Source: Streptomyces sp. NRRL S-350 (lineage in GTDB: Bacteria > Actinomycetota > Actinomycetes > Streptomycetales > Streptomycetaceae). From it: a stretch of DNA of 64,000 bases. The position numbers were made by a program, and so were the translations under genes. The DNA is taken from NCBI RefSeq assembly GCF_000719705.1, contig NZ_JOHO01000026.1, positions 35,115-99,114 on the forward strand. Direction: 5' to 3'. Shown in pieces: positions 2,388-23,145 of this stretch. How positions within the stretch are numbered: position 1 is the first letter of the stretch; every line of letters starts with the position of its first letter. Below the pieces are notes generated by a model. It worked only from the letters and a program-made list of their open reading frames with translations, was not told the DNA's origin and made no database searches.

Positions 2388-2399
2388 TTACGCGCGTAG
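2388..2399. promoter_or_regulatory. Nucleoside-regulon palindrome upstream of deoA
   Basis: TTACGCGCGTAG, one base off the 12-bp perfect palindrome CTACGCGCGTAG found upstream of add, deoC and the purine nucleoside phosphorylase gene. The core TACGCGCGTA (2389-2398) is exact. It lies 83 bp before the deoA start. That it is an operator is inferred from recurrence next to functionally related genes. Confidence 0.7.
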
Positions 2400-2446
2400 A
2401 GTGTCGCGAGTGGGCCGGAACCCGGTCATCTCGCGGCACTCTACGC
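2394..2446 (+). repeat. 17-bp inverted repeat in the deoA leader, overlapping the operator
   Basis: Arms 2394-2410 and 2430-2446 pair over 17 bp with a single T-G mismatch, which is a wobble pair in RNA, around a 19-nt loop. The left arm begins inside the TACGCGCGTA palindrome and the right arm ends in CTACGC, another operator half. It could be a terminator for cdd, an attenuator of deoA, or a second half-operator. No T-run follows directly; one lies at 2456-2460. Confidence 0.7.
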
Positions 2447-2481
2447 ATTTCACGCTTTTTGAAACCCCTCTTGGAGCACGC

Positions 2482-3759
2482 ATGGACGCCATCTCCGTCA
2501 TCAGGACCAAGCGCGATCGCGGAGAGCTGAGCGACGCTCAGATCGACTGGGTCATCGACGCCTACACCCGCGGCGAGGTCGCCGACGAGCAGATGTCCGC
2601 GCTGGCCATGGCGATCCTGCTGAACGGCATGCAGCCGCGCGAGATCAGCCGCTGGACCGACGCGATGATCCGCTCCGGCGTCCGGATGGACTTCTCCTCG
2701 CTGCCGCTGCCAACCAGCGACAAGCACTCCACCGGCGGCGTCGGCGACAAGATCACCCTCCCGCTCGCCCCGCTGGTCGCCGCCTGCGGCGCCGCCGTCC
2801 CGCAGCTCTCCGGCCGCGGCCTCGGCCACACCGGCGGCACCCTGGACAAGCTGGAGTCCATCCCCGGCTGGCGCGCCCTGCTCTCCAACGAGGAGATGAT
2901 GGACGTGCTGCGCGACGCGGGCGCCGTCATCTGCGCGGCCGGCGACGGCCTCGCGCCCGCTGACAAGAAGCTGTACGCGCTGCGCGACGTCACCGGCACC
3001 GTCGAGGCGATCCCGCTGATCGCCTCCTCGATCATGTCCAAGAAGATCGCCGAAGGCACCGGCGCGCTGGTCCTCGACGTCAAGGTCGGCTCCGGCGCCT
3101 TCATGAAGAACCTGGACGACGCCCGCGAGCTCGCCCGGACCATGGTGGGCCTGGGCACCACGGCGGGGGTCAACACCGTCGCCCTGCTCACCGACATGTC
3201 CACCCCCCTCGGCCTCACCGCGGGCAACGCGCTGGAGGTCCGCGAGTCCGTCGAGGTCCTGGCCGGCGGCGGCCCGGCCGACGTCGTCGAGCTGACCATC
3301 GCGCTCGCCCGCGAGATGCTCGCCGCGGCCGGCGTCCAGGGCAAGGACCCGGCCGACGCGCTGCGCGACGGCTCCGCGATGGACCACTGGCGCCGCATGA
3401 TCGCCGCCCAGGGCGGCGACGTGGACGCCCCCCTCCCGGTCGCCCGCGAGCAGCACGTCATCCCCGCGCCCGCCTCCGGCGTGCTCACCGAGCTCGACGC
3501 CTACGCCATCGGCGTCTGCGCCTGGCGCCTGGGCGCCGGCCGCGCCCGCAAGGAGGACCCGGTCCAGGCCGGTGCCGGTGTCGAGATGCACGCCAAGCCC
3601 GGTGACACCGTGGTGGCCGGCCAGCCGCTGCTGACCCTCCACACCGACACCCCGGAGCGCTACGAGTACGCCATCGAGGCCCTGGCGGGCGGCGTCACCG
3701 TCGCCCCCGAGGGCACGGCGTTCACCCCGAACCCGATCGTCCTCGACCGCATCGCCTGA
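2482..3759 (+). CDS. deoA: Thymidine/pyrimidine-nucleoside phosphorylase
   Basis: Phosphorolyses thymidine and deoxyuridine to the base plus deoxyribose-1-phosphate. At 425 residues it has the family length. The N-terminal helical domain is followed by the phosphate-binding KHSTGGVGDK motif, then the glycosyltransferase family-3 core (GRGLGHTGGTLDKLESIPG) and a C-terminal PYNP domain (AWRLGAGRARKEDP). The ATG at 2482 follows TTGGAGC at a sensible distance; the longer upstream frame runs through the operator and hairpin and is not coding. The product enters the mutase-DeoC-aldehyde dehydrogenase route encoded at 15.9-21.9 kb. Confidence 0.97.
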   Translation: MDAISVIRTKRDRGELSDAQIDWVIDAYTRGEVADEQMSALAMAILLNGMQPREISRWTDAMIRSGVRMDFSSLPLPTSDKHSTGGVGDKITLPLAPLVAACGAAVPQLSGRGLGHTGGTLDKLESIPGWRALLSNEEMMDVLRDAGAVICAAGDGLAPADKKLYALRDVTGTVEAIPLIASSIMSKKIAEGTGALVLDVKVGSGAFMKNLDDARELARTMVGLGTTAGVNTVALLTDMSTPLGLTAGNALEVRESVEVLAGGGPADVVELTIALAREMLAAAGVQGKDPADALRDGSAMDHWRRMIAAQGGDVDAPLPVAREQHVIPAPASGVLTELDAYAIGVCAWRLGAGRARKEDPVQAGAGVEMHAKPGDTVVAGQPLLTLHTDTPERYEYAIEALAGGVTVAPEGTAFTPNPIVLDRIA

Positions 3760-3768
3760 CGGGCGCGA

Positions 3769-3810
3769 GGTCCGCTCACGTGCGCCGGTTCAGGCGTGCG
3801 TGAGCGGACC
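3769..3810. terminator. Hairpin terminator between deoA and the MFS operon
   Basis: Perfect 12-bp arms 3769-3780 and 3799-3810 with an 18-nt loop between convergent genes. There is no T-run, as is usual in this GC range. It overlaps the end of the small minus-strand frame 3790-3939. Confidence 0.7.
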
Positions 3811-3939
3811 GCCGGTGTCGACCGTCGAGGGGCCGACGCCGATCCCGTCGCCGAAGGTGAACTTCTCGCGGGACTCGTGACCGGGTTCCGGACGCACGGT
3901 GCCGGTCATGTTCCGGACCGTGTCGGCGTCGGCTGTCAC
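3790..3939 (-). CDS. Small hypothetical protein coupled to the MFS gene
   Basis: A 49-residue frame whose GTG start overlaps the MFS stop codon (GTGA), the same coupling used by the real operons in this window. Codon third positions are almost all G or C. The product is soluble and acidic, contains EKFTFGDGIGVGPSTV, and has no membrane segment. I do not recognise a family. An internal ATG at 3909 could give a 39-residue form. The 3' end runs into the terminator hairpin, which is the main reason for doubt. Confidence 0.45.
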   Translation of the reverse strand: MTADADTVRNMTGTVRPEPGHESREKFTFGDGIGVGPSTVDTGGPLTHA

Positions 3940-5222
3940 GCGTCCGCGACCGCTCGCCGGGCCGTGTGCGCCTGCCGGGTGGCGTAGAGCGTCACGCCGG
4001 CGGCCAGGGTCATGGCGGTGAGGCCGACGGCGGCGGCGCCGGGCCAGCCGGTGGCGTGGTAGGCGTCTGCACCGACGGTGCCGCCGAGGCTGTTGCCGAG
4101 GTAGTAGGCGATCAGGTACAGCGCGGAGGCCTGGGCGCGGCCCGCAGTGGCGGTGCGGCCGACGGCGGACGACGCGGTGGCGTGGCCGGCGAAGAAGCCG
4201 GCGGTGATCAGGACCAGGCCGAGCAGCGCGCAGACCAGCGAGTCGGCGAGGGAGAGCAGCAGGCCGGTGGCGGTGACGCCGATGGAGACGTAGAGGGCGC
4301 CCCGGCGGCCGAGGCGGCCGGAGAGGCGGCCGGCCGCGGCGGAGGTGCCGGTGCCGACCAGGTAGACCACGAAGATCGAGGCGGCGATCGACTCCGGCAG
4401 GTGGAACGGCGCGCCGATCAGCCGGTAGCCGACGGTGTTGTAGACCGCGCCGAACACGGCCATGAACAGCATTCCGAGCGCGTACAGCCGCACCAGCAGC
4501 GGGTTGCGCAGGTGCCCCGCGACGGTGCGGCCGAGCGCGCGGGCGTCCACCGGCGCGGGGGTGAAGTGCCGGGCGGCGGGGATCAGCAGCCGGAAGGCGA
4601 GGGTGGCGAGCAGCGCGAGGGCGGCGGAGGCGGCGAGGCCCCAGCGCCACCCGAAGCCGGCGGCCGTCCAGCCGGAGAGCAGTCGGCCGCCCATGCCGCC
4701 GATGCTGTTGCCGGCCACGTACAGGCCCATCGCGGAGGCCAGGGCGCTGGGGTGGACCTCCTCGGCGAGGTAGGCCATGGCGGTGGCCGGGAGCCCGGCG
4801 AGGGCGGCGCCCTGGAGGACGCGCAGCACCACGAGGGTGGTGAGGTCCGGTGCGAAGGGCAGCGCGAGGGCGAGGGCGGAGGCGGCGAGGGTGGAGGCCG
4901 TCATCACCGCGGTGCGGCCGTACTTGTCGGACAGCGCGCTCGCCGGGAGCAGCCCGAGGGCGAGTCCGAGGGTGGCGGCGGAGGCCGTCCAGCTGGCCTG
5001 GCCGGGGGTGAGGTCGAGGTCGGCGGAGAGGACCGGCAGCAGGCCCTGGGTGGAGTAGAGCAGGACGAAGGTCGCGACCCCGGCGGAGAACAGGGCGAGG
5101 TTGGCGCGGCGGAAGGCGCGCTGCCCCGGGCGGTGGCGGTCGTCCTCGGTGGGGCGGGTGTCGGGGCCGGTGGCTGGGGCATCCGGGGCGGTCACGGATG
5201 CCCTGGTATCGGAGGGCTGCAT
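3936..5222 (-). CDS. MFS transporter (exporter-like)
   Basis: A 428-residue major facilitator protein with about twelve hydrophobic segments. The loop LSDKYGRTAV between segments 2 and 3 and the equivalent RLSGRLGRRGALY in the second half are the MFS A-motifs. Closest in character to the YnfM/arabinose-efflux branch of small-molecule exporters; the substrate is unknown. It is divergent from a LysR regulator 92 bp away, the usual arrangement for a regulator and its exporter target. It splits the nucleoside genes and need not belong to that pathway. The ATG at 5222 is the first in frame after the divergent promoter. Confidence 0.9.
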   Translation of the reverse strand: MQPSDTRASVTAPDAPATGPDTRPTEDDRHRPGQRAFRRANLALFSAGVATFVLLYSTQGLLPVLSADLDLTPGQASWTASAATLGLALGLLPASALSDKYGRTAVMTASTLAASALALALPFAPDLTTLVVLRVLQGAALAGLPATAMAYLAEEVHPSALASAMGLYVAGNSIGGMGGRLLSGWTAAGFGWRWGLAASAALALLATLAFRLLIPAARHFTPAPVDARALGRTVAGHLRNPLLVRLYALGMLFMAVFGAVYNTVGYRLIGAPFHLPESIAASIFVVYLVGTGTSAAAGRLSGRLGRRGALYVSIGVTATGLLLSLADSLVCALLGLVLITAGFFAGHATASSAVGRTATAGRAQASALYLIAYYLGNSLGGTVGADAYHATGWPGAAAVGLTAMTLAAGVTLYATRQAHTARRAVADA

Positions 5223-5314
5223 GACATCGACGGTAGGCCCGCCGCCGTTGATGCGTCCAATGCATGAAGCGTGGATGATCGATGCACTGGCGTATGAGTC
5301 GAGGTGGTGGCGCG

Positions 5315-6283
5315 ATGACCGGTCCCGAGGTGTCGGACGGTGGCGAACAGCGGTACCGGCTGGCCGAGTTGGAGTCGGACGGGCCGGCCGTCCGGCTGGC
5401 GCCCCGGCTCGCGCAGTTCGCGGCGGTGGCCCGGCTGGAGCACGTGACGCAGGCGGCGGCGCTGCTCGGGGTGCCGCAGCCGACGCTGTCGCGCGCGGTG
5501 GCCCGGCTGGAGGAGGACCTGGGCGTGGACCTGCTGGCGCGGCAGGGCCGTACGGTCCGGCTGACCAGGGCGGGCTGGCTGCTGCTGGCCGCCGTGGAGC
5601 GGGCGCTGGCCGAGGTCGAGCGCGGCGCGCAGGCGGCCCGGGCGGAGGCGGACCCGGAGGTGGGCCTGGTGGCCTTCGGCTTCCTGCACACGATGGGTCC
5701 GGACACGGTGCCGGCCCTGCTGCGGGGCTTCCGCGCGGCGCACCCGAAGGTGCGGTTCCAGTTGGTGCAGGACTACGGCGCGGCGATGCTGGAGCGGCTG
5801 CGGGCCGGTGAGCTGGACCTGTGCCTGGTGTCGCCGCTGCCGGACGACCCGGCGTTCACGGCCCGCCCGCTGGACGAGCAGCGCCTGCACCTGGTCGTGC
5901 CGGCGGACCACCGGCTGGCCGGGCGGCGGAGGATCCGGCTGGCGGAGGTCGCCGAGGAGCCGTTCGTCGGCCTGGAGCAGGGGTACGGGCTGCGGGCGAT
6001 CACGGAGGGCTTCTGCGCGGAGGCGGGTTTCGTGCCCCGGCTGGCGTTCGAGGGGGAGGAGGCGGAGACGCTGCGGGGGCTGGTGGCGGCCGGGCTGGGG
6101 GTGGCGCTGCTGCCGCCGGCCCTGGTGCCGAGGCCGGGGGTGGTGGAGCTGGAGGTGACGGCGCCGCGCACCCGGCGGGCGATCGGGGTGGCCTGGGCGG
6201 CGGGGCGGCCGCTGACCCCGCCGGCGAGGGCGTTCCGGGACTTCGTGCTGTCCCGGCGCGGGCGGCTGCTCCAGCACGACTGA
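5315..6283 (+). CDS. LysR-family transcriptional regulator
   Basis: A 322-residue LysR regulator. The N-terminal winged helix-turn-helix includes VTQAAALLGVPQPTLSRAVARLEEDLG (recognition helix PQPTLSRAV), followed by a periplasmic-binding-like effector domain. I chose the ATG at 5315 because GAGGTGG lies 7 nt upstream; ATGs at 5282 and 5294 have no ribosome site. It probably controls the divergent MFS gene; the 92-bp spacer has several ATGC repeats around 5249-5285 that could be its site. The 3' end, including the stop, lies in a 24-bp tandem repeat. Confidence 0.93.
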   Translation: MTGPEVSDGGEQRYRLAELESDGPAVRLAPRLAQFAAVARLEHVTQAAALLGVPQPTLSRAVARLEEDLGVDLLARQGRTVRLTRAGWLLLAAVERALAEVERGAQAARAEADPEVGLVAFGFLHTMGPDTVPALLRGFRAAHPKVRFQLVQDYGAAMLERLRAGELDLCLVSPLPDDPAFTARPLDEQRLHLVVPADHRLAGRRRIRLAEVAEEPFVGLEQGYGLRAITEGFCAEAGFVPRLAFEGEEAETLRGLVAAGLGVALLPPALVPRPGVVELEVTAPRTRRAIGVAWAAGRPLTPPARAFRDFVLSRRGRLLQHD

Positions 6284-6334
6284 CGGGTGCTGCTCCAGCA
6301 CGACTGACGGGTGCCGCTCGGCACGACCGGGGGT
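6265..6334. repeat. 24-bp tandem repeat across the LysR stop codon
   Basis: Two exact 24-bp copies (6265-6288, 6289-6312) and a degenerate 22-bp third copy (6313-6334). The first copy contains the LysR stop codon, so the extra copies are untranslated. This looks like a recent slippage duplication. Confidence 0.85.
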
Positions 6335-6476
6335 GCTGCTCCGGCAGGCCGGTGGCGTTGCTCCGCCGGGCCCCGCGGAGCCGCCCCGGGAGGTCGGCGT
6401 TTGGCGGATCGCATGGACCGGCCGGTGGAATTCCGGGTGCGGTTTGGACCATCCGGTGGTACTCCCGGTGGTAGGT

Positions 6477-6488
6477 CTACGCGCGTAG
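6477..6488. promoter_or_regulatory. Nucleoside-regulon palindrome upstream of add
   Basis: An exact CTACGCGCGTAG palindrome ending 16 bp before the add start codon. A repressor bound here would block the start of transcription or translation. No Shine-Dalgarno sequence lies between it and the ATG, so the message may be leaderless or nearly so. Confidence 0.75.
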
Positions 6489-6504
6489 GGGCTATATTTC
6501 CGCA

Positions 6505-7662
6505 ATGGAAAAGCAGATCCCCGTCACCACCGCGGGCACCGGCCCGCGCATCCCCACCGCCGACCAGATCCGCCGCGCGCCGAAGGTCCTCCTGCACGAC
6601 CACCTCGACGGTGGGCTGCGCCCGGAGACCGTGGTCGAGCTGGCCGCCGCCGTCGGCTACCAGGGCCTTCCCACCACCGACCCGAAGGAGCTCGGCGAGT
6701 GGTTCCGCGAGGCCGCCGACTCCGGCTCGCTGGTCCGCTACCTGGAGACCTTCGCGCACACCTGCGCCGTGATGCAGACCCGCGAGGCCCTGATCAAGGT
6801 CGCCGCCGACTGCGCCGAGGACCTGGCCGCCGACGGCGTCGTGTACGCCGAGGTCCGCTACGCCCCCGAGCAGCACCTGGAGGCCGGCCTGACCCTCGAC
6901 GAGGTCGTCGAAGCCGTCCAGGAGGGCTTCCGCCTCGGCGAGGCCAACGCCCGCGAGGCCGGCCGCCGGATCCGGGTCGGCACCCTGCTGACCGCGATGC
7001 GGCACGCCGCCCGCTCCACCGAGATCGCCGAACTGGCCAACCGCTACCGGGACCAGGGCGTCGTCGGCTTCGACATCGCGGGTGCCGAGGCCGGCTACCC
7101 CCCCACCCGCCACCAGGCCGCCTTCGACTACCTCAAGGGCGAGAACAACCACTTCACCATCCACGCGGGCGAGGCCTTCGGCCTGCCGTCGATCTGGGAG
7201 GCCCTGCAGTGCTGCGGCGCCGACCGGCTCGGCCACGGCGTGCGGATCGTCGACGACATCACGGTGGGCGAGGACGGTGCGGTCGAGCTCGGCCGGCTGG
7301 CCGCGTACGTGCGCGACAAGCGCATCCCGCTGGAGATGTGCCCGACGTCCAACATCCAGACCGGCGCGGCCACCTCGTACGCCGAGCACCCGATCGGGCT
7401 GCTCAGCCGGCTGAAGTTCCGGGTCACCGTGAACACCGACAACCGGCTGATGAGCGGCACCAGCATGAGCCAGGAGTTCGGCCACGTGGTGGAGGCCTTC
7501 GGCTACACGCTGGGGGACCTGGAGTGGTTCACCGTGAACGCGATGAAGTCCGCGTTCCTGCCCTTCGACGAGCGGCTGGCGATGATCAACGACGTGATCA
7601 AGCCGGGCTACGCCGAGCTGAAGGCGGAATGGCTGTTCAGCGCGGGTGTCGGCGGCAACTGA
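6505..7662 (+). CDS. add: Adenosine deaminase
   Basis: Deaminates adenosine and deoxyadenosine to inosine and deoxyinosine, which the purine nucleoside phosphorylase at 22.3 kb can then cleave. 385 residues. All zinc/catalytic elements are present: HDHLDGG near the N-terminus (HxH metal ligands), HAGE with the catalytic glutamate, GHG, and NTDN near the C-terminus. The ATG at 6505 lies only 16 bp after the palindromic operator with no obvious ribosome site. It appears monocistronic: the LysR gene upstream is separated by 221 bp of repeats and promoter, and a 10-bp hairpin follows. Confidence 0.96.
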
Positions 7663-7674
7663 GCCGTGGCGCCG

Positions 7675-7705
7675 GGCCCGTTCCCGGGTGTCGGAGGAAC
7701 GGGCC
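7675..7705 (+). terminator. Hairpin after add
   Basis: Perfect 10-bp arms 7675-7684 and 7696-7705 around an 11-nt loop, 12 bp after the add stop. Confidence 0.65.
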
Positions 7706-7739
7706 GATCGGACACGGAAGTTGGCGTTCATCGGACTAC

Positions 7740-7755
7740 TCACTCGGGTGAGTGA
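7740..7755. promoter_or_regulatory. Palindrome upstream of the small secreted protein gene
   Basis: TCACTCGGGTGAGTGA, 6-bp arms with a 4-bp spacer, 134 bp before the ATG at 7889. It shares the outer TCAC...GTGA and several inner bases with the 16-bp palindrome I recall for BldM homodimers, but differs at about three positions. Confidence 0.4.
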
Positions 7756-7888
7756 ACGGCCTTTGGTCCTCGCGCGACCGGCTCACTACGGTGTGCCAGT
7801 CATTGCCGACCAGGCGCGGTGGCGGCCTCCCGGTCGTCGGAACCCGTACGCGAGGCCGGCCACCGACGAGGACCCAAGGGGACGAACC

Positions 7889-8260
7889 ATGAAGCAGGCT
7901 CTCAAGGCCGCCGGCACCGCGGCGCTCGGCATCGCCATCGCGGCGGTCGGCGCCGGCACCGCCTCCGCCGACGCCGCCCCGGCGCCCGGCGGCCTCGGAC
8001 TGCCCACCGGCGCGGTGACGAACCCCGCGGTCACGGGGGCGGTCACCGACACCGCCACCAAGCTGCCCGGCGGTGACAAGGTCACCGGCACGCTCGGCAG
8101 CCTCGCGCCGTCCGTCGGCCGTGCCGCCCCGGCCGCCGCCGCCCCGATCGCCGGGGTCACCCAGCAGCGCGGCGCCGTCCCGTCCGTCCCGGGTCTCGAC
8201 AAGACCCCCATCGGCGGGCTGACCGGCGCCCTGCCGGGTCTGCCGGGCCTGGGCGGCTGA
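7889..8260 (+). CDS. Small secreted Gly/Pro-rich protein
   Basis: 123 residues. A clear Sec signal peptide (KQALKAAGTAALGIAIA then ASA cleavage site near residue 27) is followed by a low-complexity Ala/Gly/Pro/Thr-rich mature region ending LPGLPGLGG. No catalytic motif or cysteine is visible, so a surface or matrix role is possible but unproven. AAGGGGA precedes the ATG at good spacing. It is flanked by a palindrome upstream and a 24-bp perfect terminator downstream, so it is expressed on its own. Confidence 0.8.
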   Translation: MKQALKAAGTAALGIAIAAVGAGTASADAAPAPGGLGLPTGAVTNPAVTGAVTDTATKLPGGDKVTGTLGSLAPSVGRAAPAAAAPIAGVTQQRGAVPSVPGLDKTPIGGLTGALPGLPGLGG

Positions 8261-8276
8261 TCCGAGCCACCCGACA

Positions 8277-8329
8277 CGGCGACGGGCCGCCCGCCCCCGG
8301 GATCACCGGGGGCGGGCGGCCCGTCGCCG
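8277..8329. terminator. 24-bp bidirectional terminator
   Basis: Perfect 24-bp arms 8277-8300 and 8306-8329 with a 5-nt loop, between the convergent secreted-protein and PspC genes. It is the strongest hairpin in the window. Confidence 0.9.
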
Positions 8330-8336
8330 TTCCCTC

Positions 8337-8522
8337 CTACGGCTCCTGGGGCAGGAGCACCCAGAGGGCGAGGTAGAGCAGGAACTGCGGGCCGGGCAGC
8401 AGGCAGGAGAGCAGGAAGATCAGGCGGACGGTCCACGGGGTCAGGCCGAAGCGGTCGGCGATCCCGGCGCAGACGCCGGCGATGACACGGTTGTGGCGGG
8501 GTCGGGCGAGGCGGGCGCTCAT
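8337..8522 (-). CDS. PspC domain protein
   Basis: 61-residue small membrane protein. The PspC signature is plain: basic RHNRVIAGVCAGIADRFG, then TPWTVRLIF and a hydrophobic hairpin ending LALWVLLP. Members of this family act in envelope-stress sensing (phage-shock response) or as sensor-kinase N-termini; this is the stand-alone form common in Streptomyces. The ATG at 8522 gives the standard domain start, and the longer frame to 8693 runs through the promoter. A 19-bp palindrome at 8682-8700 lies in the likely promoter. Confidence 0.9.
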   Translation of the reverse strand: MSARLARPRHNRVIAGVCAGIADRFGLTPWTVRLIFLLSCLLPGPQFLLYLALWVLLPQEP

Positions 8523-8681
8523 GATCCACTCCTGATCTGCTTCGCACGGTGGCGGCCCGGTCCGGCCGGTCCGGCGGGGTACTTCCATCCTGCTCCGCGA
8601 CCGCCGGGCGGTCCTCAACCCGCGAGGTGATTCTCCGACCCCCCGGCTCACCGGCGAGGCGGAGCCGAACGTCGGGGTCGC

Positions 8682-8700
8682 CCTCAGGGTCACCCTGAGG
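8682..8700. promoter_or_regulatory. Perfect palindrome upstream of the PspC gene
   Basis: CCTCAGGGTCACCCTGAGG: 9-bp arms around one base, about 160 bp before the PspC start. It matches Streptomyces promoter-proximal operators in style, but I do not recognise the regulator. Confidence 0.5.
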
Positions 8701-8707
8701 AAACCGC

Positions 8708-8756
8708 GGAAGGCCCGCCCGGCCCCGCTCGACGGCGGGGCACGGACGGGCCTTCC
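8708..8756 (-). terminator. Terminator of the gene at 8799-9362
   Basis: Outer 10-bp perfect arms 8708-8717 and 8747-8756 with a second GC hairpin inside, 43 bp beyond the stop codon of the minus-strand gene. Confidence 0.7.
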
Positions 8757-8798
8757 GGTGCGCGTACGCGGGCGCGCGTACGGCGGGCGTGCGGCCGG

Positions 8799-9362
8799 TC
8801 AGCCGACCGGGTGCGGCGGCTGCGGCTGCCCGGGCTGAGCCGGCGGCGCGGGCTGCGCGTACGGGTTGTCCGCCACCGGCTGCGGCGGCAGGCCGGGCTG
8901 GTACGGCGAGCCGCCCTGCGGCGGCGCCGCCTGCGGAGCGGCCGGCGGCACGGCCGGCGGCACGGGCGCGCCCGGGTGCGGGGCGTTGGGGTTGTACGGC
9001 GGCTGCGGCGCGTTGGGGTCGTACGGAGCCTGCGGGGCGTTCGGGTTGAACGCGGCGGCCTGCGCGGCCGGCTGCCGCTTGGCCCTGCTGCGCTCGGCCA
9101 TCGTCTTCACCGAGTAGACGATCATCGCGACGGGCAGGATGAACACCTTGAAGAAGAGGTAGTACGTGCCGCCCTCGAAGACGAAGGCGAGGTAGTAGGC
9201 GTACCCCAGGAAACCGAGGCCGATGAGGACGTTGAGGATCCGCAGGCCGACCTTCAGTCCGCCGCCGACGGCGCCGAGCACCACCATGAGGATGCCGCTG
9301 AGCGCCAGCAGGACGACGTACCAGGAGAACAGCGGCTCGGCGCTGAAATCGAGATTGTTCAA
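8799..9362 (-). CDS. Hypothetical membrane protein with proline-rich tail
   Basis: 187 residues. Three to four hydrophobic segments span residues 10-100 (for example LLALSGILMVVLGAVGGGLKV and FFKVFILPVAMIVYSV), then an asparagine/proline-rich cytoplasmic tail has repeats of the form NPNAPQ-PYDPNAPQPPY. The start is a TTG at 9362, chosen because AGGAAA lies 6 nt upstream; the only in-frame ATGs are inside a membrane segment or far upstream in noncoding DNA. Family not recognised. The repeated YNPNAP units resemble tails of other actinobacterial membrane proteins that bind partners. Confidence 0.75.
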   Translation of the reverse strand: MNNLDFSAEPLFSWYVVLLALSGILMVVLGAVGGGLKVGLRILNVLIGLGFLGYAYYLAFVFEGGTYYLFFKVFILPVAMIVYSVKTMAERSRAKRQPAAQAAAFNPNAPQAPYDPNAPQPPYNPNAPHPGAPVPPAVPPAAPQAAPPQGGSPYQPGLPPQPVADNPYAQPAPPAQPGQPQPPHPVG

Positions 9363-9507
9363 GGGGGGTTTCCTGTGGGAGGGAAGTGGGACGGCGGAGC
9401 CGTTCGGGGACGAGAGCGCACAGTACTGGAGGCGGCCGACATCCGTCGCGGCCTTTGTGTCACGGTGTCGTTGCGCTCTTCCCGGAAGGTGATCGACGAG
9501 GTGGGAA

Positions 9508-15964: not shown

Positions 15965-16870
15965 TCAGATACCCATCGGGTGCCAGACCGTCTTCGTCTC
16001 CAGGAACGAGAGTAGCCGGTCCGTACCGGGCGCATTGGTCCAGTCCTGGGCGAACGGGTCCAGCACCGGACGGACCACCCTCTTCAGGGTATCCGCGGCG
16101 GCCGCTTCCAGCGCCTGCGCCGCGCCGGGACCGTCGGCGGCGATCGCCCCGGTGAGGTCCAGCGCGTTGACGTCCTGGTGCGAGGCCAGGGTGGGGGCGA
16201 TGTCCGCGGTCCGGCCCGAGACGATGTTGACCACGCCGCCCGGGACGTCCGAGGTGGCGAGCACCTCGCCCAGCGACAGCGCGGGCAGCGGGGCGTCCGC
16301 GGCGGCCGCGACCACGACCGTGTTGCCGGTGGCGATCGCCGGGGCGATCACCGAGACCAGGCCGAGCAGCGAGTGCCCGTAGCCGGCCTGCGGGGCGACG
16401 ATCCCGACCACGCCGGTCGGCTCCGGGGCCGACAGGTTGAAGTACGGACCGGCGACGGGGTTGGCACCGCCCGCGATCTGGGCGACCTTGTCCGTCCAGC
16501 CCGCGTACCAGACCCAGCGGTCGATCGCGGCGTCCACCAGCGCGGCGGCCTTCTTCGGGCCGATGCCCTCGGAGGCGGCCACCTCGGCGGCGAACTGCTC
16601 GCGCCGGCCCTGCAGCATCTCGGCGACCCGGTACAGCACCTGGCCGCGGTTGTACGCGGTGGTGCCGGCCCAGCCCTTGACCGCCGCGCGGGCCGCCAGC
16701 ACGGCGTCCCGGGTGTCCTTGCGGGTGCCCAGCGGGGCGTTGGCGAGCCACTGGCCGTTCGAGTCGGTCACCTCGTACACCCGCCCGCTCTCGGAGCGCG
16801 GGAACTTCCCGCCGACGTACAGCTTGTAGGTCTTGAGGACGTCAAGACGCGCGAAGGTCGTGTCAGACAT
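15965..16870 (-). CDS. Degenerate aldehyde dehydrogenase partner (pseudoenzyme)
   Basis: 301 residues, against about 480-500 for a full aldehyde dehydrogenase. The N-terminal and cofactor-binding regions are recognisable (KLYVGGKFPRSESGR, GVVGIVAPQAGYGHSLL, ATGNTVVVAAAADAPLPALS, VPGGVVNIVSG). The ELGGK glutamate loop, the catalytic cysteine and most of the catalytic domain are missing. The PWNFP motif reads APQAG. Its ATG overlaps the stop of the complete dehydrogenase by 8 bases, so both are made from one message with deoC. A structural or regulatory subunit is likelier than decay, because the frame is intact and codon use is normal. Confidence 0.85.
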   Translation of the reverse strand: MSDTTFARLDVLKTYKLYVGGKFPRSESGRVYEVTDSNGQWLANAPLGTRKDTRDAVLAARAAVKGWAGTTAYNRGQVLYRVAEMLQGRREQFAAEVAASEGIGPKKAAALVDAAIDRWVWYAGWTDKVAQIAGGANPVAGPYFNLSAPEPTGVVGIVAPQAGYGHSLLGLVSVIAPAIATGNTVVVAAAADAPLPALSLGEVLATSDVPGGVVNIVSGRTADIAPTLASHQDVNALDLTGAIAADGPGAAQALEAAAADTLKRVVRPVLDPFAQDWTNAPGTDRLLSFLETKTVWHPMGI

Positions 16871-18344
16871 CGAGGTAGGCCTCCAGACCGTGGCGGCCAC
16901 CTTCGCGGCCGTAGCCCGACTCCTTGTAGCCGCCGAACGGCGAGGTCGGGTCGAACTTGTTGAAGGTGTTGGCCCAGACCACGCCGGCCTTGAGCTTGTC
17001 GGCCGCCCAGAGGATGCGCGAGCCCTTTTCCGTCCAGATGCCGGCGGAGAGGCCGTACGGGGTGTTGTTGGCCTTCTCGATCGCCTCGGCGGGGGTGCGG
17101 AAGGTCAGCACCGAAAGCACCGGGCCGAAGATCTCCTCCTGGGCGATCCGGTGGGCCTGGCTGACGCCGGTGAACAGGGTCGGCCGGAACCAGAAGCCGC
17201 TGCCGGGGAGTTCGCACTCCGGCGACCAGCGGTCCGCGCCCTCGGCCTCGCCGGCGTCGGTCAGCTCGGTGATCCGGGCCAGCTGCGCGGCCGAGTTGAT
17301 GGCGCCGATGTCGGTGTTCTTGTCCAGCGGGTCGCCGACCCGCAGGGTGGCCATCCGGCGCTTCAGGGCGTCCAGCAGCTCGTCCTGGACCGACTCCTGG
17401 ACCAGCAGGCGCGAGCCCGCGCAGCAGACGTGGCCCTGGTTGAAGAAGATGCCGTTGACGATGCCCTCGACGGCCTGGTCGATCGGCGCGTCGTCGAAGA
17501 CGATGTTGGCGGCCTTGCCGCCGAGCTCCAGCGACAGCCGCTTGCGGCTGCCGGCCAGCTGCTTGGCGATCGCCCGGCCGACCGGGGTGGAGCCGGTGAA
17601 GGCGACTTTGTTGACGTCCGGGTGCGCGGTCAGCGCGGCGCCGGTGCGGCCGTCGCCGGTGACGATGTTGACGACGCCCTTCGGCAGACCGGCCTGGCGG
17701 CAGATCTCGGCGAAGCGCAGCGCCGTCAGCGGCGTGGTCTCGGCCGGCTTCAGCACGACCGTGTTGCCGGTCGCCAGCGCGGGCGCGATCTTCCAGGCCA
17801 GCATCATCAGCGGGAAGTTCCACGGGATGACCTGGCCGGCCACGCCGAGCGGGCGCGGGTTGGCGCCGAAGCCCGCGTAGTCCAGCTTGTCCGCCCAGCC
17901 CGCGTAGTAGAAGAACCACGCGGCGACGGTCGGGATGTCGAAGTCGCGGGTCTCGCGGATCGGCTTGCCGTTGTCGATCGACTCCAGCACGGCCAGCTCG
18001 CGGCCGCGCTCCTGGATGATCCGGGCGATCCGGAACATGTACTTGGCGCGCTCGCTGCCGGGCAGCGCCGACCAGTCGCCGAACGCCTTGCGGGCGGCGG
18101 CGACCGCGCGGTCCACGTCCTCGTCGGTGCCCTGGGCGAACTCGGCGAGCACCTGCTCGGTGGCCGGGTTGACCGTCTTCAGGGCCTCGCTGCCGGAGGA
18201 GTCGACGAACTCGCCGCCGATGAAGTGGCCGTAGGAGGAGGCGATGTCGCCCGCGGCGGCGGGGGACTCGGGGGCCGGGGCGTAGGTGAAGAGGCCTCCG
18301 GCGGGCTTGCCCGTCGGCTCCTCGATGTTCTTCTTCTTGGCCAT
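16863..18344 (-). CDS. Aldehyde dehydrogenase, catalytic
   Basis: NAD(P)-dependent aldehyde oxidation; 493 residues. All the key motifs are present: VIPWNFPLMM, KPAETTPLTA, the Rossmann TGSTPVG, LELGGKAANIV with the general base Glu, GHVCCAGSR with the nucleophilic Cys, and EEIFGPVLSV. Starts 5 bp after the deoC stop, so it is in the same operon. DeoC releases acetaldehyde from deoxyribose-5-phosphate, and this enzyme is the natural candidate to oxidise it. That substrate is inferred from operon position; the N-terminal 30 residues are an atypical Lys/Pro/Ala-rich extension. Confidence 0.94.
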   Translation of the reverse strand: MAKKKNIEEPTGKPAGGLFTYAPAPESPAAAGDIASSYGHFIGGEFVDSSGSEALKTVNPATEQVLAEFAQGTDEDVDRAVAAARKAFGDWSALPGSERAKYMFRIARIIQERGRELAVLESIDNGKPIRETRDFDIPTVAAWFFYYAGWADKLDYAGFGANPRPLGVAGQVIPWNFPLMMLAWKIAPALATGNTVVLKPAETTPLTALRFAEICRQAGLPKGVVNIVTGDGRTGAALTAHPDVNKVAFTGSTPVGRAIAKQLAGSRKRLSLELGGKAANIVFDDAPIDQAVEGIVNGIFFNQGHVCCAGSRLLVQESVQDELLDALKRRMATLRVGDPLDKNTDIGAINSAAQLARITELTDAGEAEGADRWSPECELPGSGFWFRPTLFTGVSQAHRIAQEEIFGPVLSVLTFRTPAEAIEKANNTPYGLSAGIWTEKGSRILWAADKLKAGVVWANTFNKFDPTSPFGGYKESGYGREGGRHGLEAYLDV

Positions 18345-18349
18345 GGTGA

Positions 18350-19336
18350 TCAGTCCACCGTCACGTAGTCGGGGCCGGAGTAGCGGCCGGTGGCGAGCTT
18401 CTGGCGCTGCATCAGCAGGTCGTTGAGCAGGCTGGAGGCGCCGAAGCGGAACCAGTGCGGGGTCAGCCAGTCGTCGCCGAGGGTCTCGTTGACCATGACC
18501 AGGTACTTCATGGCGTCCTTGGTGGTCTTGATGCCACCGGCGGGCTTCACGCCGACCTGGACGCCGGTGGCCGCGCGGAAGTCGCGGACCGCCTCCAGCA
18601 TCAGCAGGGTGACCGGCGGCGTCGCGTTGACGGCGACCTTGCCGGTGGAGGTCTTGATGAAGTCGGCGCCGGCCAGCATCGCCAGCCAGGAGACCCGGCG
18701 GACGTTGTCGTAGGTCTGCAGCTCGCCGGTCTCGAAGATCACCTTGAGGTGGGCGGAGCTGCCATCGGGACGCTTGCACGCCTCCTTGACGGCCACGATC
18801 TCGTTGAAGACGTCGAGGTAGCGGCCGGAGAGGAAGGCGCCGCGGTCGATCACCATGTCGATCTCATCGGCGCCCGCGGCGACCGCGTCGGCGGTGTCGG
18901 CGAGCTTGACCGGGAGGGCGGCACGGCCGGCCGGGAAGGCGGTGGCCACCGAGGCGACCTGGATGTCGGTGCCCCGCAGGGCGGCCTTCGCGGTGGCGAC
19001 CATGTCCGGGTAGACACAGATGGCGGCGACGCGGGGGGTGGTCGGGTCGGTCGGGTCGGGGGTCCTGCCCTTGGCGCACAGTGCGCGCACCTTGCCGACC
19101 GTGTCCGCGCCCTCCAGCGTGGTCAGGTCGATCATCGAGATCGCCAGGTCGATGGCATAGGCCTTCGCCGTGGTCTTGATCGAGCGGGTACCGAGGGTGG
19201 CGGCACGCGCCTCAAGGCCGACCTGGTCGACGCCGGGCAGGCCGTGCAGGAAGCGGCGGAGCGAGGCCTCGGACGCCGCAACGTCCTGAAGGCCGCTGCC
19301 CGCAACGCCGGGGGCATTGGCTGCAACAGTGGACAT
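18350..19336 (-). CDS. deoC: Deoxyribose-phosphate aldolase
   Basis: Splits 2-deoxyribose-5-phosphate into acetaldehyde and glyceraldehyde-3-phosphate through a Schiff base. 328 residues, the longer actinobacterial type. TIM-barrel motifs include VAAICVYPDMV, ADEIDMVIDRGAFL, LKVIFETGEL, FIKTSTGKV with the Schiff-base lysine, and GVKPAGGIKT. The ATG at 19336 follows GGTGAC weakly; the longer frame runs through the operator at 19356-19367. First gene of deoC-ALDH-ALDH-like. Confidence 0.96.
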   Translation of the reverse strand: MSTVAANAPGVAGSGLQDVAASEASLRRFLHGLPGVDQVGLEARAATLGTRSIKTTAKAYAIDLAISMIDLTTLEGADTVGKVRALCAKGRTPDPTDPTTPRVAAICVYPDMVATAKAALRGTDIQVASVATAFPAGRAALPVKLADTADAVAAGADEIDMVIDRGAFLSGRYLDVFNEIVAVKEACKRPDGSSAHLKVIFETGELQTYDNVRRVSWLAMLAGADFIKTSTGKVAVNATPPVTLLMLEAVRDFRAATGVQVGVKPAGGIKTTKDAMKYLVMVNETLGDDWLTPHWFRFGASSLLNDLLMQRQKLATGRYSGPDYVTVD

Positions 19337-19355
19337 AGTCACCAGACCAGCATAT

Positions 19356-19367
19356 CTACGCGCGTAG
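19356..19367. promoter_or_regulatory. Nucleoside-regulon palindrome upstream of deoC
   Basis: An exact CTACGCGCGTAG, 19 bp before the deoC start codon and 75 bp before the divergent PH-domain-type gene. It is the same 12-mer as at add and the phosphorylase gene. Confidence 0.78.
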
Positions 19368-19442
19368 TAGTGCGCCAGGGTGGCGGCCTTTCGTGGCCGG
19401 ACCGAGACCTCGGGGGGAAAGCCATGGGGCAGAATCGAGGCC

Positions 19443-20123
19443 ATGACCGATTCCGACGGCAGGCCCGACCGGGGCCCCGCCGCCCCCGACGGGGAACCCG
19501 AGTACGCGGACCGCGTGTACCGCTCCGTTCCCGGCGTGATCTCCGGAGTGCTCCTGCTGGCCGTCGCCGCCTGGCTGATCGGCGACGCGGCGGTGACCGG
19601 GACCGGGAAGACCCCCTACGTCTCGCTCGCCGCGGTGCCGGTGTTCGCCTTCCCGGTGATCGCCTACACGCTGCGCCCGGAGGTACGGGCCGGCCGCGGC
19701 CGGCTGGTGGTGCGCAATCCGTGGCGGACCATCGTCGCGCCGTGGGCCTCGGTGGAGGGGCTGCGCGCCGGCTACTCGGTCGAACTGTTCGCCGGCGGCC
19801 GCAAGTACCAGGTGTGGGCGGTGCCCGTCTCGCTGCGCCAGCGCAAGCGCGCCGCCCGCGCGCAGGGCCGCGGCAGCGCCGAGCACGCCTCCCGGACGGG
19901 CCTGGGGCCGGGCCTCGCCGCCCGTACCAACCCGGTCGTCCAGGGCTCGTCCGACCCGACCCGCGCCTGGTCCGACCAGGTCACCGACGTGCTGCAGGGG
20001 ATGGCCGAGCGCAACGCCGCCCGCCCCGACGCGGCCGGCCCGGTCGTGGTGCGCTGGTGCTGGTGGGTGATCGCCCCCACCCTGGTGGGCCTGATCGCGC
20101 TGATCACGGTCATCGCGGTCTGA
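19443..20123 (+). CDS. PH-domain-like membrane protein
   Basis: 226 residues. Two hydrophobic segments near the N-terminus (GVISGVLLLAVAAWLIG and VSLAAVPVFAFPVIAYTL) are followed by a bacterial PH-like sheet (GRLVVRNPWRTIVAPWASVEGLRAGYSVEL) and a final hydrophobic segment WVIAPTLVGLIALITVIAV. Such proteins are usual next to deoC in Streptomyces, but the role is unknown. Start at 19443, with a gap of 106 bp to divergent deoC. It ends in the hairpin at 20137-20179. Confidence 0.8.
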   Translation: MTDSDGRPDRGPAAPDGEPEYADRVYRSVPGVISGVLLLAVAAWLIGDAAVTGTGKTPYVSLAAVPVFAFPVIAYTLRPEVRAGRGRLVVRNPWRTIVAPWASVEGLRAGYSVELFAGGRKYQVWAVPVSLRQRKRAARAQGRGSAEHASRTGLGPGLAARTNPVVQGSSDPTRAWSDQVTDVLQGMAERNAARPDAAGPVVVRWCWWVIAPTLVGLIALITVIAV

Positions 20124-20136
20124 CGCCGCCCGACGA

Positions 20137-20179
20137 CGCGCGAGGGCCCGCCGGTTCGCCGCCGGCGGGCCCTCGCGCG
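20137..20179. terminator. 18-bp bidirectional terminator
   Basis: Perfect arms 20137-20154 and 20162-20179 with a 7-nt loop between the convergent PH-domain and mutase genes. Confidence 0.88.
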
Positions 20180-20193
20180 TTGCTGGGCGGGGG

Positions 20194-21918
20194 TCAGACG
20201 GTGATGCCGGCCGCCGCGGCGAGGTCCTGCTTGACGGTGGCGAGGAGGGCGGCGGCCCGGTCGCGGGTGGCGGCCAGGTCGGCTGCGGAGGCGACCGGGA
20301 GAACGACCTCCAGGTAGCACTTGAGCTTGGGCTCGGTGCCGGAGGGGCGGACCACGATGCGGGCCGAGCGGACGCCCTCGCCCGCCAGGTAGTACCGCAG
20401 GCCGTCGGTGGGCGGCAGGTCGTCGGAGCCGGCCGCGAGGTCGTCGGCGCGGGTGACGGCCAGGCCGGCCAGGACGGTCGGCGGCTGCTCGCGCAGGCGG
20501 CGCATGGCGTCGCCGATCAGCGAGAGGTCCTGGACCCGGACGGAGAGCTGGTCGGTGGCGTGCAGGCCGTGCTCCAGCGCCAGGTCGTCCAGCAGGTCGG
20601 ACAGGGTGCGGCCGGACCGCTTGAGGGTGGCGGCGAGCTCGGCGACCAGCAGGGCGGCGGTGATGCCGTCCTTGTCCCGGACGCCCTGCGGGTCGACGCA
20701 GTAGCCGAGCGCCTCCTCGTAGCCGTAGCGCAGGCCGTCGGCGCGGGAGATCCACTTGAAGCCGGTCAGCGTCTCGGCGTAGCCCAGGCCCGCCGCCTCG
20801 GCGATCCGGCCCAGCAGCGTCGCGGAGACGATGGTGGTGGCGAAGGTGCCCTCGGCCTTCTTCGCGACCAGGGCGGAGCCGAGCAGGGCGCCGACCTCGT
20901 CGCCGCGCAGCATCCGCCAGCCCGAGCTGCCGTTGCCGCTGCCGACCGCGTTGCCGTTGGTGGGGACGGCCACCGCGCAGCGGTCGGCGTCCGGGTCGTT
21001 GGCGATCACGATGTCGGGGCCGACCGCGGCGGCGGTGCGGAAGGCGAGGTCCATCGCCCCCGGCTCCTCCGGGTTGGGGAAGGCCACGGTCGGGAAGTCC
21101 GGGTCCGGCTCGGCCTGTTCGGCGACCACGGTCGGCGCGGGGAAGCCGGCCCGGCGGAAGGCGGCGACGAGGGTGTCGCGGCCGACGCCGTGCATCGGGG
21201 TGTAGACGACGTCGAGCTCGCGCGGGGTGTGCTCGTCGACGATGGAGACGGCCCGGGCCAGGTAGGCGTCGACGACGTCCTCGCCGAGCACCTCCCAGCC
21301 GTCCTCGGCGCGCGGGACCTCCGCCAGCGAGGCGATCGCGTCGATCTCGGCGGCGATCCCGGCGTCGGCCGGCGGGACGATCTGCGAGCCGTCGCCCAGA
21401 TAGACCTTGTAGCCGTTGTCCTGCGGCGGGTTGTGGCTGGCGGTGACGGTGACGCCGGCGGCCGCGCCCAGGTGGCGGACGGCGAACGCGAGCACCGGCG
21501 TGGGCAGCGGGCGGGGCAGCAGGGCGGCGCGCAGGCCGGCGCCGACCACCACGGCGGCGGTGTCGCGGGCGAAGTCGTACGACTTGTGCCGGGCGTCGTA
21601 GCCGATGACGACCAGGTCGCCCAGGCCCTGCTTCCGGACGTACGCGACCAGGCCGGCGGCGGCCCGGATCACCACGGCGCGGTTCATCCGCATCGGGCCG
21701 GCGCCGAGTTCGCCGCGCAGGCCGGCGGTGCCGAACTGGAGGCGGTCGGAGAAGCGCTCGGCGAGCTCCGCCCAGGCGGTCTTGCTGTCCGATTCGGCGT
21801 CCGGGCCCTCGGCCCGGGCCAGCAGGGCGGTGAGCTCCTCGCGGGTCTGCGGGTCGGGGTCCTCGGCCAGCCAGGCCCTGGCCCGGGTGAGGAGGTCGGT
21901 GGTGGGTGCCTGCGTCAT
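20194..21918 (-). CDS. Phospho-sugar mutase (phosphoglucomutase/phosphopentomutase-like)
   Basis: 574-residue alpha-D-phosphohexomutase superfamily enzyme. Active-site serine Ser161 in TASHNP, metal loop DPDADR, sugar-specificity loop GYEEALGYCV, and C-terminal phosphate-binding RPSGTEPKLKCY. Length and the FGTAGLRG N-terminal motif place it with the PGM2/YbbT-like branch, whose members include phosphopentomutases. No DeoB-type phosphopentomutase is seen in the window, and the gene sits between deoC and the purine nucleoside phosphorylase. Interconversion of (deoxy)ribose-1- and 5-phosphate is therefore a strong inference. Confidence 0.9.
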   Translation of the reverse strand: MTQAPTTDLLTRARAWLAEDPDPQTREELTALLARAEGPDAESDSKTAWAELAERFSDRLQFGTAGLRGELGAGPMRMNRAVVIRAAAGLVAYVRKQGLGDLVVIGYDARHKSYDFARDTAAVVVGAGLRAALLPRPLPTPVLAFAVRHLGAAAGVTVTASHNPPQDNGYKVYLGDGSQIVPPADAGIAAEIDAIASLAEVPRAEDGWEVLGEDVVDAYLARAVSIVDEHTPRELDVVYTPMHGVGRDTLVAAFRRAGFPAPTVVAEQAEPDPDFPTVAFPNPEEPGAMDLAFRTAAAVGPDIVIANDPDADRCAVAVPTNGNAVGSGNGSSGWRMLRGDEVGALLGSALVAKKAEGTFATTIVSATLLGRIAEAAGLGYAETLTGFKWISRADGLRYGYEEALGYCVDPQGVRDKDGITAALLVAELAATLKRSGRTLSDLLDDLALEHGLHATDQLSVRVQDLSLIGDAMRRLREQPPTVLAGLAVTRADDLAAGSDDLPPTDGLRYYLAGEGVRSARIVVRPSGTEPKLKCYLEVVLPVASAADLAATRDRAAALLATVKQDLAAAAGITV

Positions 21919-22286
21919 CCCAACTCCTTGCGTGGTTGCCCCGGGTACGGGTCAGGGCGTCTGGACGGGTGGTTCTCACTGTGTCGCCTCGGCGGCGTCG
22001 TGGCGTTGCCGAGGCGTGCCGCCGGGCCGGCGGGGGGTCGGGTCCGCGGAGCCGGTGGGCGGCCGCGGGCCGGGACCGCCGCCCCGGCCGGCGATCCTCG
22101 TGGGCGGCCGGCCGTGGAGCGGACGCGTCCGCTCGGGAGGGAGGGCGGCCGGGGCTCCGGGCGCGGTGCGGTCAAGGCTGCCGGCTCCGTCCCGAGGCGG
22201 TGGGCGGCACGCGGACGGGGCCCGCGGGCGGGTGTGATCAGCGGATCACTGTTTCCCGCGGGCCCCGTCGCTCATGCGTGTGGGCG
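21919..22286. other. Gene-free stretch: mutase promoter and phosphorylase terminator
   Basis: No convincing coding frame; the one open frame on the minus strand is Pro/Arg shadow sequence. The right end holds a strong hairpin (perfect 15-bp arms 22214-22228 and 22255-22269, with an inner GTGATC/GATCAC stem) that should terminate the purine nucleoside phosphorylase message. The rest is a very GC-rich leader of the mutase gene, without the nucleoside palindrome. Confidence 0.7.
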
Positions 22287-23108
22287 TCAGATCCGTTCGA
22301 GGACCTTCGCCAGCAGCTCGCCCATGCGCTCGGCGGAGGCCTTGCCGGCCTCCAGCACCTCGGCGTGGTTGAGCGGCTCGCCGGTGATGCCGGCGGCCAG
22401 GTTGGTGACCAGGGAGATGCCCAGCACCTCGGCGCCGGCCTCGCGGGCGGCGATGGCCTCCAGGGTGGTGGACATGCCGACCAGCTCGCCGCCGATCACC
22501 CGGGCCATGTTGACCTCGGCCGGGGTCTCGTAGTGCGGGCCGCGGAACTGCACGTAGACGGCCTCGTCCAGGGACGGATCCACCTCGCGGCAGAGCGCGC
22601 GCAGGCGCTTGGAGTAGAGGTCGGTGAGGTCGACGAAGTTGGCGCCGACGATCGGGGAGTCCGCGGTCAGGTTGATGTGGTCGCTGATCAGGACCGGCTG
22701 GCCCGGGGTCCAGCCCTGGCGCAGGCCGCCGCAGCCGTTGGTCAGCACGATGATGCCGCAGCCGGCCGCGGCGGCGGTGCGCACGCCGTGGACGACGGTC
22801 GCCACGCCGTGGCCCTCGTAGTAGTGGTTGCGGCCGAGGAAGATCAGGGCGCGCTTGTCGCCGATCTTCACCGAGCGGATCGTGCCGGCGTGGCCGGCGA
22901 CGGCGGGGGCGGGGAAGCCGGGCAGGTCGGTGACCGGGAACTCGGCCACGGTCTCGCCCAGGGCGTCGGCGGCCGGCACCCAGCCGGAGCCCATCACCAG
23001 GGCGACGTCGTGCCGCTCGGCACCGGTCAGCTCGCGCAGGCGCTCGGCGGCGGCCTGGGCGGCGGCGTAGGGGTCGGCGGAGACGACCGACTGAGGAGAA
23101 GCGTTCAC
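22287..23108 (-). CDS. Purine nucleoside phosphorylase
   Basis: Cleaves (deoxy)inosine and (deoxy)guanosine with phosphate to base plus (deoxy)ribose-1-phosphate. 273 residues, the trimeric PNP type (PunA-like). [11 protein letters not shown] phosphate loop, [17 protein letters not shown], and [17 protein letters not shown] with the base-binding Glu region. GTG start at 23108, since the frame further upstream runs across the operator. Takes the product of adenosine deaminase and supplies the mutase. Confidence 0.95.
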
Positions 23109-23133
23109 GGGTCCGAGGATAGACGGGAATCGG

Positions 23134-23145
23134 CTACGCGCGTAG
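23134..23145. promoter_or_regulatory. Nucleoside-regulon palindrome upstream of the phosphorylase
   Basis: Exact CTACGCGCGTAG, 25 bp before the GTG start. Confidence 0.78.

Follow-up and report, generated by a model that had tools for sequence, protein, structure and literature searches.

The question that this locus raises is why one short palindrome should stand again and again at the starts of genes for nucleoside metabolism. The locus is a 64-kb stretch of DNA from Streptomyces sp. NRRL S-350 (contig NZ_JOHO01000026.1, positions 35115-99114, or G000:C26:35115-99114), the whole of which is called the window here, and the element is the uninterrupted 12-bp palindrome CTACGCGCGTAG. With distances counted from the first base of the site to the start codon, and with no strand assigned to the sites, exact copies lie at 6477..6488, 28 bp upstream of the ATG of add (adenosine deaminase, 6505..7662, plus strand); at 19356..19367, 25 bp from the GTG of deoC (deoxyribose-phosphate aldolase of the DeoC/LacD family, 18350..19342, minus strand); and at 23134..23145, 37 bp from the GTG of a PNP_UDP_1 phosphorylase gene of the purine nucleoside phosphorylase type (PNP, 22287..23108, minus strand). 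A one-mismatch copy, TTACGCGCGTAG, lies between cdd and deoA (2388..2399, 94 bp from the deoA start), and a two-mismatch copy, CTACGCGCGTCC, lies 71 bp upstream of purK (60471..60482). All of these had been listed in a preliminary description of the window and all are present; its view that chance was improbable also stands, as Markov models of the window (order 1-4) predict 0.0017-0.0040 exact copies where three are seen. The answer proposed here is that CTACGCGCGTAG is, with high probability, the operator of a transcriptional repressor found throughout the Streptomycetaceae, which would control a regulon for the scavenging of purines and nucleic acids.

Placement and conservation of the palindrome

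The genome to which the window belongs (G000, 8.78 Mb) contains, on one strand, four exact copies as against one of the reversed control, all four of them on the contig of the window and all at pathway genes, the fourth being upstream of purN-purH, 33.8 kb left of the window. Twelve other genomes drawn from the same genus have 3-5 exact copies each (0-2 for the reversed control). The scatter over unrelated sites that the preliminary description had named as a possible refutation was not found: the 55 exact copies in these 13 genomes are at five types of gene, add (13), deoC (13), PNP (13), purN (10) and a gene for a secreted protein (6), and nowhere else. The distances are nearly constant, at always 28 bp (ATG) for add, always 25 bp (GTG) for deoC, 36-38 bp for PNP and 124-132 bp for purN. 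By sequence relatedness the genus is probably Kitasatospora, eight of the 12 PNP loci with at least 91% identity (best segment) to that of the window being named Kitasatospora and four Streptomyces.

The secreted protein whose gene has the exact site in six of the 13 genomes harbors He_PIG and CBM_4_9 domains; one of the six copies is truncated where its contig ends and was identified through a common HRVLFDN-KAETA stretch. The protein is about 570 aa long (L035:2619-4334, L034, L044, L045, L059, L064), with a conserved N-terminal part that has no Pfam match above the cut-off, and with the He_PIG and CBM_4_9-like domains in most, not all, copies. It is perhaps an as yet unrecognised nucleic-acid-degrading enzyme. 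Its predicted structure had a mean pLDDT of 46 (five sequences) and was not used.

The same placement is found in a second genus, Streptomyces-type by the named loci, in which 26 of the 27 exact copies in seven genomes are at pathway genes: add (eight, one genome having two), PNP (seven), deoC (seven) and the ATPase gene of a nucleoside ABC transporter (four). In G077 (L181:2672) a second add-type gene, on the other chromosome arm, begins with an exact operator of its own. The named loci used, which are the 80 best out of at least 560, come from Streptomyces, Kitasatospora, Streptacidiphilus, Peterkaempfera, Streptantibioticus and Wenjunlia, together with a metagenome-assembled genome of wider name. 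All 80 of them have the exact site at PNP, its twelve columns being 100% conserved, and the commonest base averages 59% in the 40 bp before and 73% in the 35 bp after. At deoC, 47 named loci were testable, of which 43 have the exact site and four a copy with one mismatch. A palindrome shared by the promoters of functionally linked genes is thus kept upstream of their orthologues, a check that the preliminary description had called for.

Among 81 genomes drawn from the family, 80 have the exact site, representing 16 of 17 genera, with 264 exact copies as against 41 of the control (33 genomes hold a control copy). G171 alone lacks it and shows CTACGCGCGTTA at its PNP gene and CTACGCGAGTAG at its deoC gene. 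In twenty stretches fetched from family genomes, mostly picked for their few copies, the PNP promoter was readable in 17 (nine exact, seven with one mismatch, one with two) and deoC in 13 (two exact, ten with one mismatch, one without a copy at the aligned start).

The limit of the site, in the genomes read, is the Streptomycetaceae. PNP promoters have the exact site in 26 of 26 family genomes as against none of the four outgroup promoters read, which have 4-6 mismatches, although one outgroup PNP is 78% identical; 11 further outgroup genomes with PNP were left unread. Of 118 genomes drawn from the whole class, the eight that belong to the family carry 3-5 copies each; 105 of the 110 others carry none, four carry one and G108 carries three. 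The single exact copies (G101, G125, G130, G136) are away from pathway genes as far as readable, and three more genomes of other families (G013, G017, G018) have one exact copy each in or near coding sequence that is unrelated by gene calls, with a guaB-like gene at two of these. Two of the copies in G108 are near transposase-like repeats, and the third (L178:7062) is 116 bp upstream of a gene run encoding PTPS, a PfkB kinase, a radical-SAM protein, IMP dehydrogenase and GTP cyclohydrolase I. This run looks like a deazapurine or nucleoside-antibiotic cluster, and the copy ahead of it may be a chance occurrence or a transferred promoter.

Promoter layout and the likely mode of action

The consensus sequences that follow the site suggest how a bound protein might act. 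They read [site]GnGCTAnAnTnCCGCAATG at add (26 segments), [site]ATATGCTCGTCTGGTG at deoC (58 segments, anchored on the site) and [site]GCnnnnACCGGCTACCCTCGTCCGCGTG at PNP (111 segments). At add, TATATT starts 4 bp past the site and stops 6 bp short of the ATG; the deoC site ends 1 bp before a -10-like TATGCT; and at PNP, the site is about where a -35 element would lie. The start codon comes 6-7 bp after the end of the -10-like hexamers, a spacing that is typical of leaderless Streptomyces promoters. By this layout the three promoters are probably leaderless, their transcripts probably beginning at the start codon, with the palindrome between -35 and -10 or about at -35. A repressor dimer would then bind the palindrome in the -35/-10 region of these short promoters and block RNA polymerase.

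Positive control is an alternative, and the PNP site is indeed near the -35 position, where a class II activator could sit. The sites at deoC and add, however, end 1 bp and 4 bp before the -10-like hexamer, which suits occlusion, and when PNP, add and deoC are compared, the distance between the center of the site and the start codon differs by 3 to 12 bp, so that no single helix face is kept. Placement near the -10 together with a shifting center suits steric repression better than activation, and an activator bound at the site is accordingly judged unlikely.

Further copies and the breadth of the predicted regulon

The reach of the predicted repressor was read from places with at most one mismatch in four genomes of the same genus (G000, G004, G005 and G011). 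One strand of the window's own genome has 24 such places as against 17 for the control, and 13 of its 20 one-mismatch places are at listed candidate targets. These include the purine and salvage genes purS, add2 (a second adenosine deaminase), guaB1 (GMP reductase, NF052358) and deoA; genes for an NCS2 permease, a CN hydrolase and a major facilitator superfamily (MFS) protein, as well as rpoB; and genes for secreted proteins, namely an ExeM/NucH-like nuclease (nucH, two places 58 bp apart), a 5'-nucleotidase-like protein, a cpdB-like protein and a PF00545 RNase. Here purS, which adjoins an Lsr2-like gene, was assigned by synteny with G005 and G011, and several of the other names rest on hidden Markov model (HMM) matches. 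Most of these target kinds recur in the three further genomes, in which like genes account for 10 of 12 (G005), 10 of 18 (G004) and 11 of 18 (G011) one-mismatch places, counting rpoB and MFS, in tallies that rely on N-terminal sequences and, in part, on HMM hits. G005 adds purF, folD and purN (the last with CTACGCGCGTCG), and G004 adds an NCS1 base permease. Ahead of gcvP, a copy with one mismatch lies at a distance of 419 bp in G011 and one with two mismatches at 301 bp in the own genome, where a BMP-type ABC transporter operon has CTACGCGCGTTA 42 bp upstream. In G004 the CN hydrolase gene adjoins a dihydropyrimidinase-type gene, and pyrimidine breakdown may therefore belong to the regulon as well. 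The copy at the RNase gene uses CTA, which makes up 0.7% of leucine codons in the called genes of the window, hinting at a constraint on the DNA.

Several of these loci have further peculiarities. Upstream of the cpdB-like gene, two species have a pair of operator-like copies with a spacing of exactly 14 bp (G000:C57:17776 and 17790, in L153 and L223; L110:1984 and 1998), and the copies at the secreted nuclease gene are also paired, 58 bp apart in G000 and 25 bp apart in G005. In all four genomes read, GTACGCGCGTAG lies in the gap between rplL and rpoB (L005:1501, L107:2030, L125:1989, L136:2034), and its distance upstream of the apparent start of rpoB, where measured, is 43 bp. G004 and G011 share CGACGCGCGTAG near the beginning of a TIR-domain gene (L122:2047, L137:1999). 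TetR genes are present downstream of the RNase gene in G000 and G004 and near nucH in G000; they are not general across genomes and were set aside as candidates for the regulator.

These assignments support a regulon that reaches de novo purine synthesis, base transport, GMP reductase, and secreted nucleases and nucleotidases. The preliminary description had read the palindrome as the mark of a nucleoside-catabolism regulon; the shared site at linked genes is confirmed, and its extent is larger than was then seen, so that nucleoside catabolism is too narrow a name. The proposed regulon would span the route by which external nucleic acid becomes purine nucleotide. Nucleosides would be freed by secreted DNase, RNase and nucleotidases and imported by the BMP-type ABC transporter and the base permeases. 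Salvage would proceed by add, add2, cdd, PNP, deoA, deoC and GMP reductase, and new purine synthesis by purF, purSQL, purNH, purK and folD. Plentiful purines would keep these genes repressed and a shortage would release them in a scavenging response, a purine-shortage signal being what a single switch over nucleases, uptake, salvage and synthesis appears to fit.

A number of observations weigh against so broad a reading. When two mismatches are allowed, the window is not enriched (six copies seen, 4.24 expected, with 23 of 100 shuffles reaching six), and one strand of the own genome has 171 copies, fewer than the 435 of the control; the signal thus sits in the exact and one-mismatch copies. 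Even at one mismatch the excess over the control is modest in three further same-genus genomes (23/15, 23/13 and 16/11), and seven of the 20 one-mismatch places in the own genome fall within coding sequence or beside genes that are unrelated or unassigned. The candidates rpoB, MFS, folD, purF and gcvP rest on one- or two-mismatch copies in one to four of the four genomes, and the RNase copy sits within the first codons of its gene. Three of the 13 same-genus genomes have no exact copy at purN (G005, the one of the three in which the purN state was read, has CTACGCGCGTCG instead), and the odd exact copy in the second genus, in G121, is 17 bp upstream of a HAD-type hydrolase gene. To place catabolic and biosynthetic genes under one repressor would also be unusual, and the purine-shortage logic is itself deduced from the target list. 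The counts at two mismatches speak for a chance or compositional palindrome in GC-rich DNA. For the exact copies, however, chance is ruled out by the 55 of 55 placement in 13 genomes, the conservation at 80 of 80 PNP promoters and the Markov expectation, leaving this explanation a negligible probability.

The copy at deoA is a further weak point. The preliminary description had counted four linked starts, of which add, deoC and the phosphorylase gene stand. At deoA (pyrimidine nucleoside phosphorylase, 2482..3759, plus strand), which follows cdd (cytidine deaminase, 1974..2375, plus strand, the final gene of a bmp-ABC-cdd run), the right half of TTACGCGCGTAG is the 5' foot of an intercistronic stem-loop (2394..2446, plus strand) with a 17-pair outer stem, and the copy is weaker evidence because half of it belongs to this hairpin. 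The region folds at -50.7 kcal/mol for 106 nt (z -5.45) and is kept in the three genomes aligned; two of them, G004 and G011, have CTCTTCGC as the 3' arm, with one pair broken and the palindrome side unchanged. The element may act as an operator, as an RNA element or as both, and as a doubtful operator it would not count on its own; the stem-loop is possibly an attenuator or an RNA processing element.

Other features of the window adjoin these genes. A phosphomannomutase/phosphopentomutase-like gene (20194..21918, minus strand) lies between deoC and PNP, and purK (5-(carboxyamino)imidazole ribonucleotide synthase) occupies 60542..61699 on the plus strand. A LysR-type gene (5312-6283) lies between an MFS gene and add and is likewise found next to add in several other genomes of the genus; its place is taken by another gene in those genomes of the second genus that were read. 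At the right end of the contig, an open reading frame (63474-63950) begins with VYKRQ, a string that is presumably a frequent assembly artefact, and the last bases may not be genomic.

Candidate regulators and known relatives

Which protein would bind the operator? Binding, repression, the effector and the identity of the regulator are all argued here from DNA and protein comparisons. The best named candidate is the DeoR-family protein encoded at 25576..26565 (plus strand; PF08220 and PF00455), envisaged as a dimer whose sugar-phosphate sensor would make it leave the operator when (deoxy)ribose phosphate or phosphoribosyl pyrophosphate (PRPP) rises. The preliminary description had named it with caution as the obvious local candidate, and that caution was fair; its probability is put at somewhat below even. 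A distance of 2.4 kb separates its gene from the PNP operator in the window, and the gene is present at 73 of the 80 named loci, as expected of a DeoR-family regulator encoded with its targets, six of the seven misses having less than 1.3 kb of contig left. An orthologue of 73% identity or more is found in 31 of 31 family genomes searched, the own included, and the seven genomes searched from neighboring families have only 29-44% matches, a limit shared with the palindrome. Across 92 sequences, 57 of the 60 residues of the DNA-binding part (1-60) are invariant, with a mean identity of 0.999, as compared to 0.77-0.94 in the sensor domain and 0.34-0.38 in the tail. For comparison, the identities are 0.74-0.87 for PNP and 0.72-0.93 for the neighboring flavoprotein reductase, and the DNA-binding domain of AfsQ1 gives 0.894 with 76 of 101 residues invariant in an overlapping set of loci. 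The only solved relative of the sensor by sequence is the sensor domain of a deoxyribose operon repressor (7l6l, E 7e-7). The E. coli DeoR operator is likewise a spacerless palindrome, with TA at -5/-4.

Against this candidate, its own promoter differs, as the preliminary description had stated: the palindrome is absent from the promoter in the window and from the shared words of 72 promoters, although a DeoR-family regulator might be expected to have a site there. The promoter instead has GCAAACG/GCTGAAAGC, and some promoters of outgroup DeoR paralogues bear AAACG-type repeats, which are more typical of the DeoR family. The promoter (25400-25576) has a conserved block of its own, GCAAAC..GCTGAAAGC..GTTACTGTC, which includes the likely -35 and -10 and extends about 20 bp further upstream. 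Moreover, the presence and limit of DeoR rest on one gain on the tree. Finally, SCO4920, which we take to be the S. coelicolor orthologue, shares a co-expression module with bldN in one study (PMC3224704) and appears among regulators affected by glucose in another (PMC4848846), in neither case with purine genes in the passages concerned.

The hint of a different motif in the DeoR promoter speaks for a repressor of another family, for example of the MarR, BlaI/CopY or TetR type, unlinked to its targets as E. coli PurR is. A TAC-N4-GTA layout fits the operators of MarR (OhrR) and CopY proteins, and the palindrome has this layout. By eye, and with not every neighbor scanned, no regulator gene with a one-mismatch promoter copy was recognised in four genomes, which counts in favor of this reading. 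No candidate of another family turned up; even so, such a repressor has a marginally better than even chance of being the regulator. XdhR, the ppGpp-responsive purine regulator of S. coelicolor, is alike in that it exerts transcriptional control over Streptomyces purine salvage and ties it to (p)ppGpp (PMC6627660). However, XdhR controls xdhABC and act genes, the passages on it in that review name no such palindrome, and the own genome has no site with at most one mismatch within 30 kb of any of eight xdh-like matches. Six xdh-like loci were read, with two two-mismatch strings among them; the xdh promoter itself lay outside what was read. It is most improbable that XdhR is the regulator.

The class of mechanism, in which a repressor binds a palindrome at the promoters of a scattered regulon, is already known. 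The PurR regulons of B. subtilis and E. coli likewise join pur genes, the one-carbon genes folD and gcv, GMP reductase and base transport under one operator and are repressed when purines are plentiful, as is likely here. Targets among pur operons, as in E. coli, are found here at purN (exact in 10 of 13), purS and purF (one mismatch) and purK (two). B. subtilis PurR senses PRPP through a domain of the phosphoribosyltransferase fold, and E. coli PurR belongs to the LacI family, uses a purine corepressor and binds operators of the type ACGCAAACGTTTGCGT. The present site is unlike these, in that the 12-bp CTACGCGCGTAG is unrelated in sequence and has far less conserved flanks, and in that secreted nucleases, nucleotidases and nucleoside-degrading enzymes are added. 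The E. coli DeoR regulon (deoCABD) resembles it in its targets deoC, deoA and a nucleoside phosphorylase and in a spacerless palindrome, and the sensor of the local DeoR candidate matches the deoxyribose operon repressor 7l6l. It is unlike in that the targets here are scattered and include purine synthesis, and in that the operator sequence differs.

A search of the open-access literature found no report of this site, its extent or its family limit, and no Streptomyces operator or regulator spanning both purine synthesis and salvage; subscription papers were outside this search, so that a printed description is possible. The string TACGCGCGTA is printed in eight papers and the whole 12-mer in two of these, none of which is on a Streptomyces regulator, judging by titles and the starts of abstracts. 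The S. coelicolor iModulons (PMC11538686) mention a 'purines' gene set, with no operator or regulator given for it in the parts available.

A fuller picture would have a DeoR-type repressor, not a PurR, read PRPP or (deoxy)ribose-5-phosphate and, by way of a single frozen 12-bp operator, govern a regulon for purine starvation in which the digestion of nucleic acid by secreted enzymes, the uptake and breakdown of nucleosides and de novo purine synthesis come together. Taken as a whole this picture is rather improbable, at about one part in favor to several against. If true, such a regulon would be the purine equivalent of the Pho response and would suit the recycling of nucleic acids from lysing mycelium. 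The frozen operator, with its defined list of targets, is a direct probe for fishing out the regulator. Purine supply sets the levels of GTP, ppGpp and c-di-GMP, which steer Streptomyces development and antibiotic production, according to the parts of a review that bear on this (PMC6627660), and the regulon would tie the secreted nucleases of mycelium recycling to purine synthesis.

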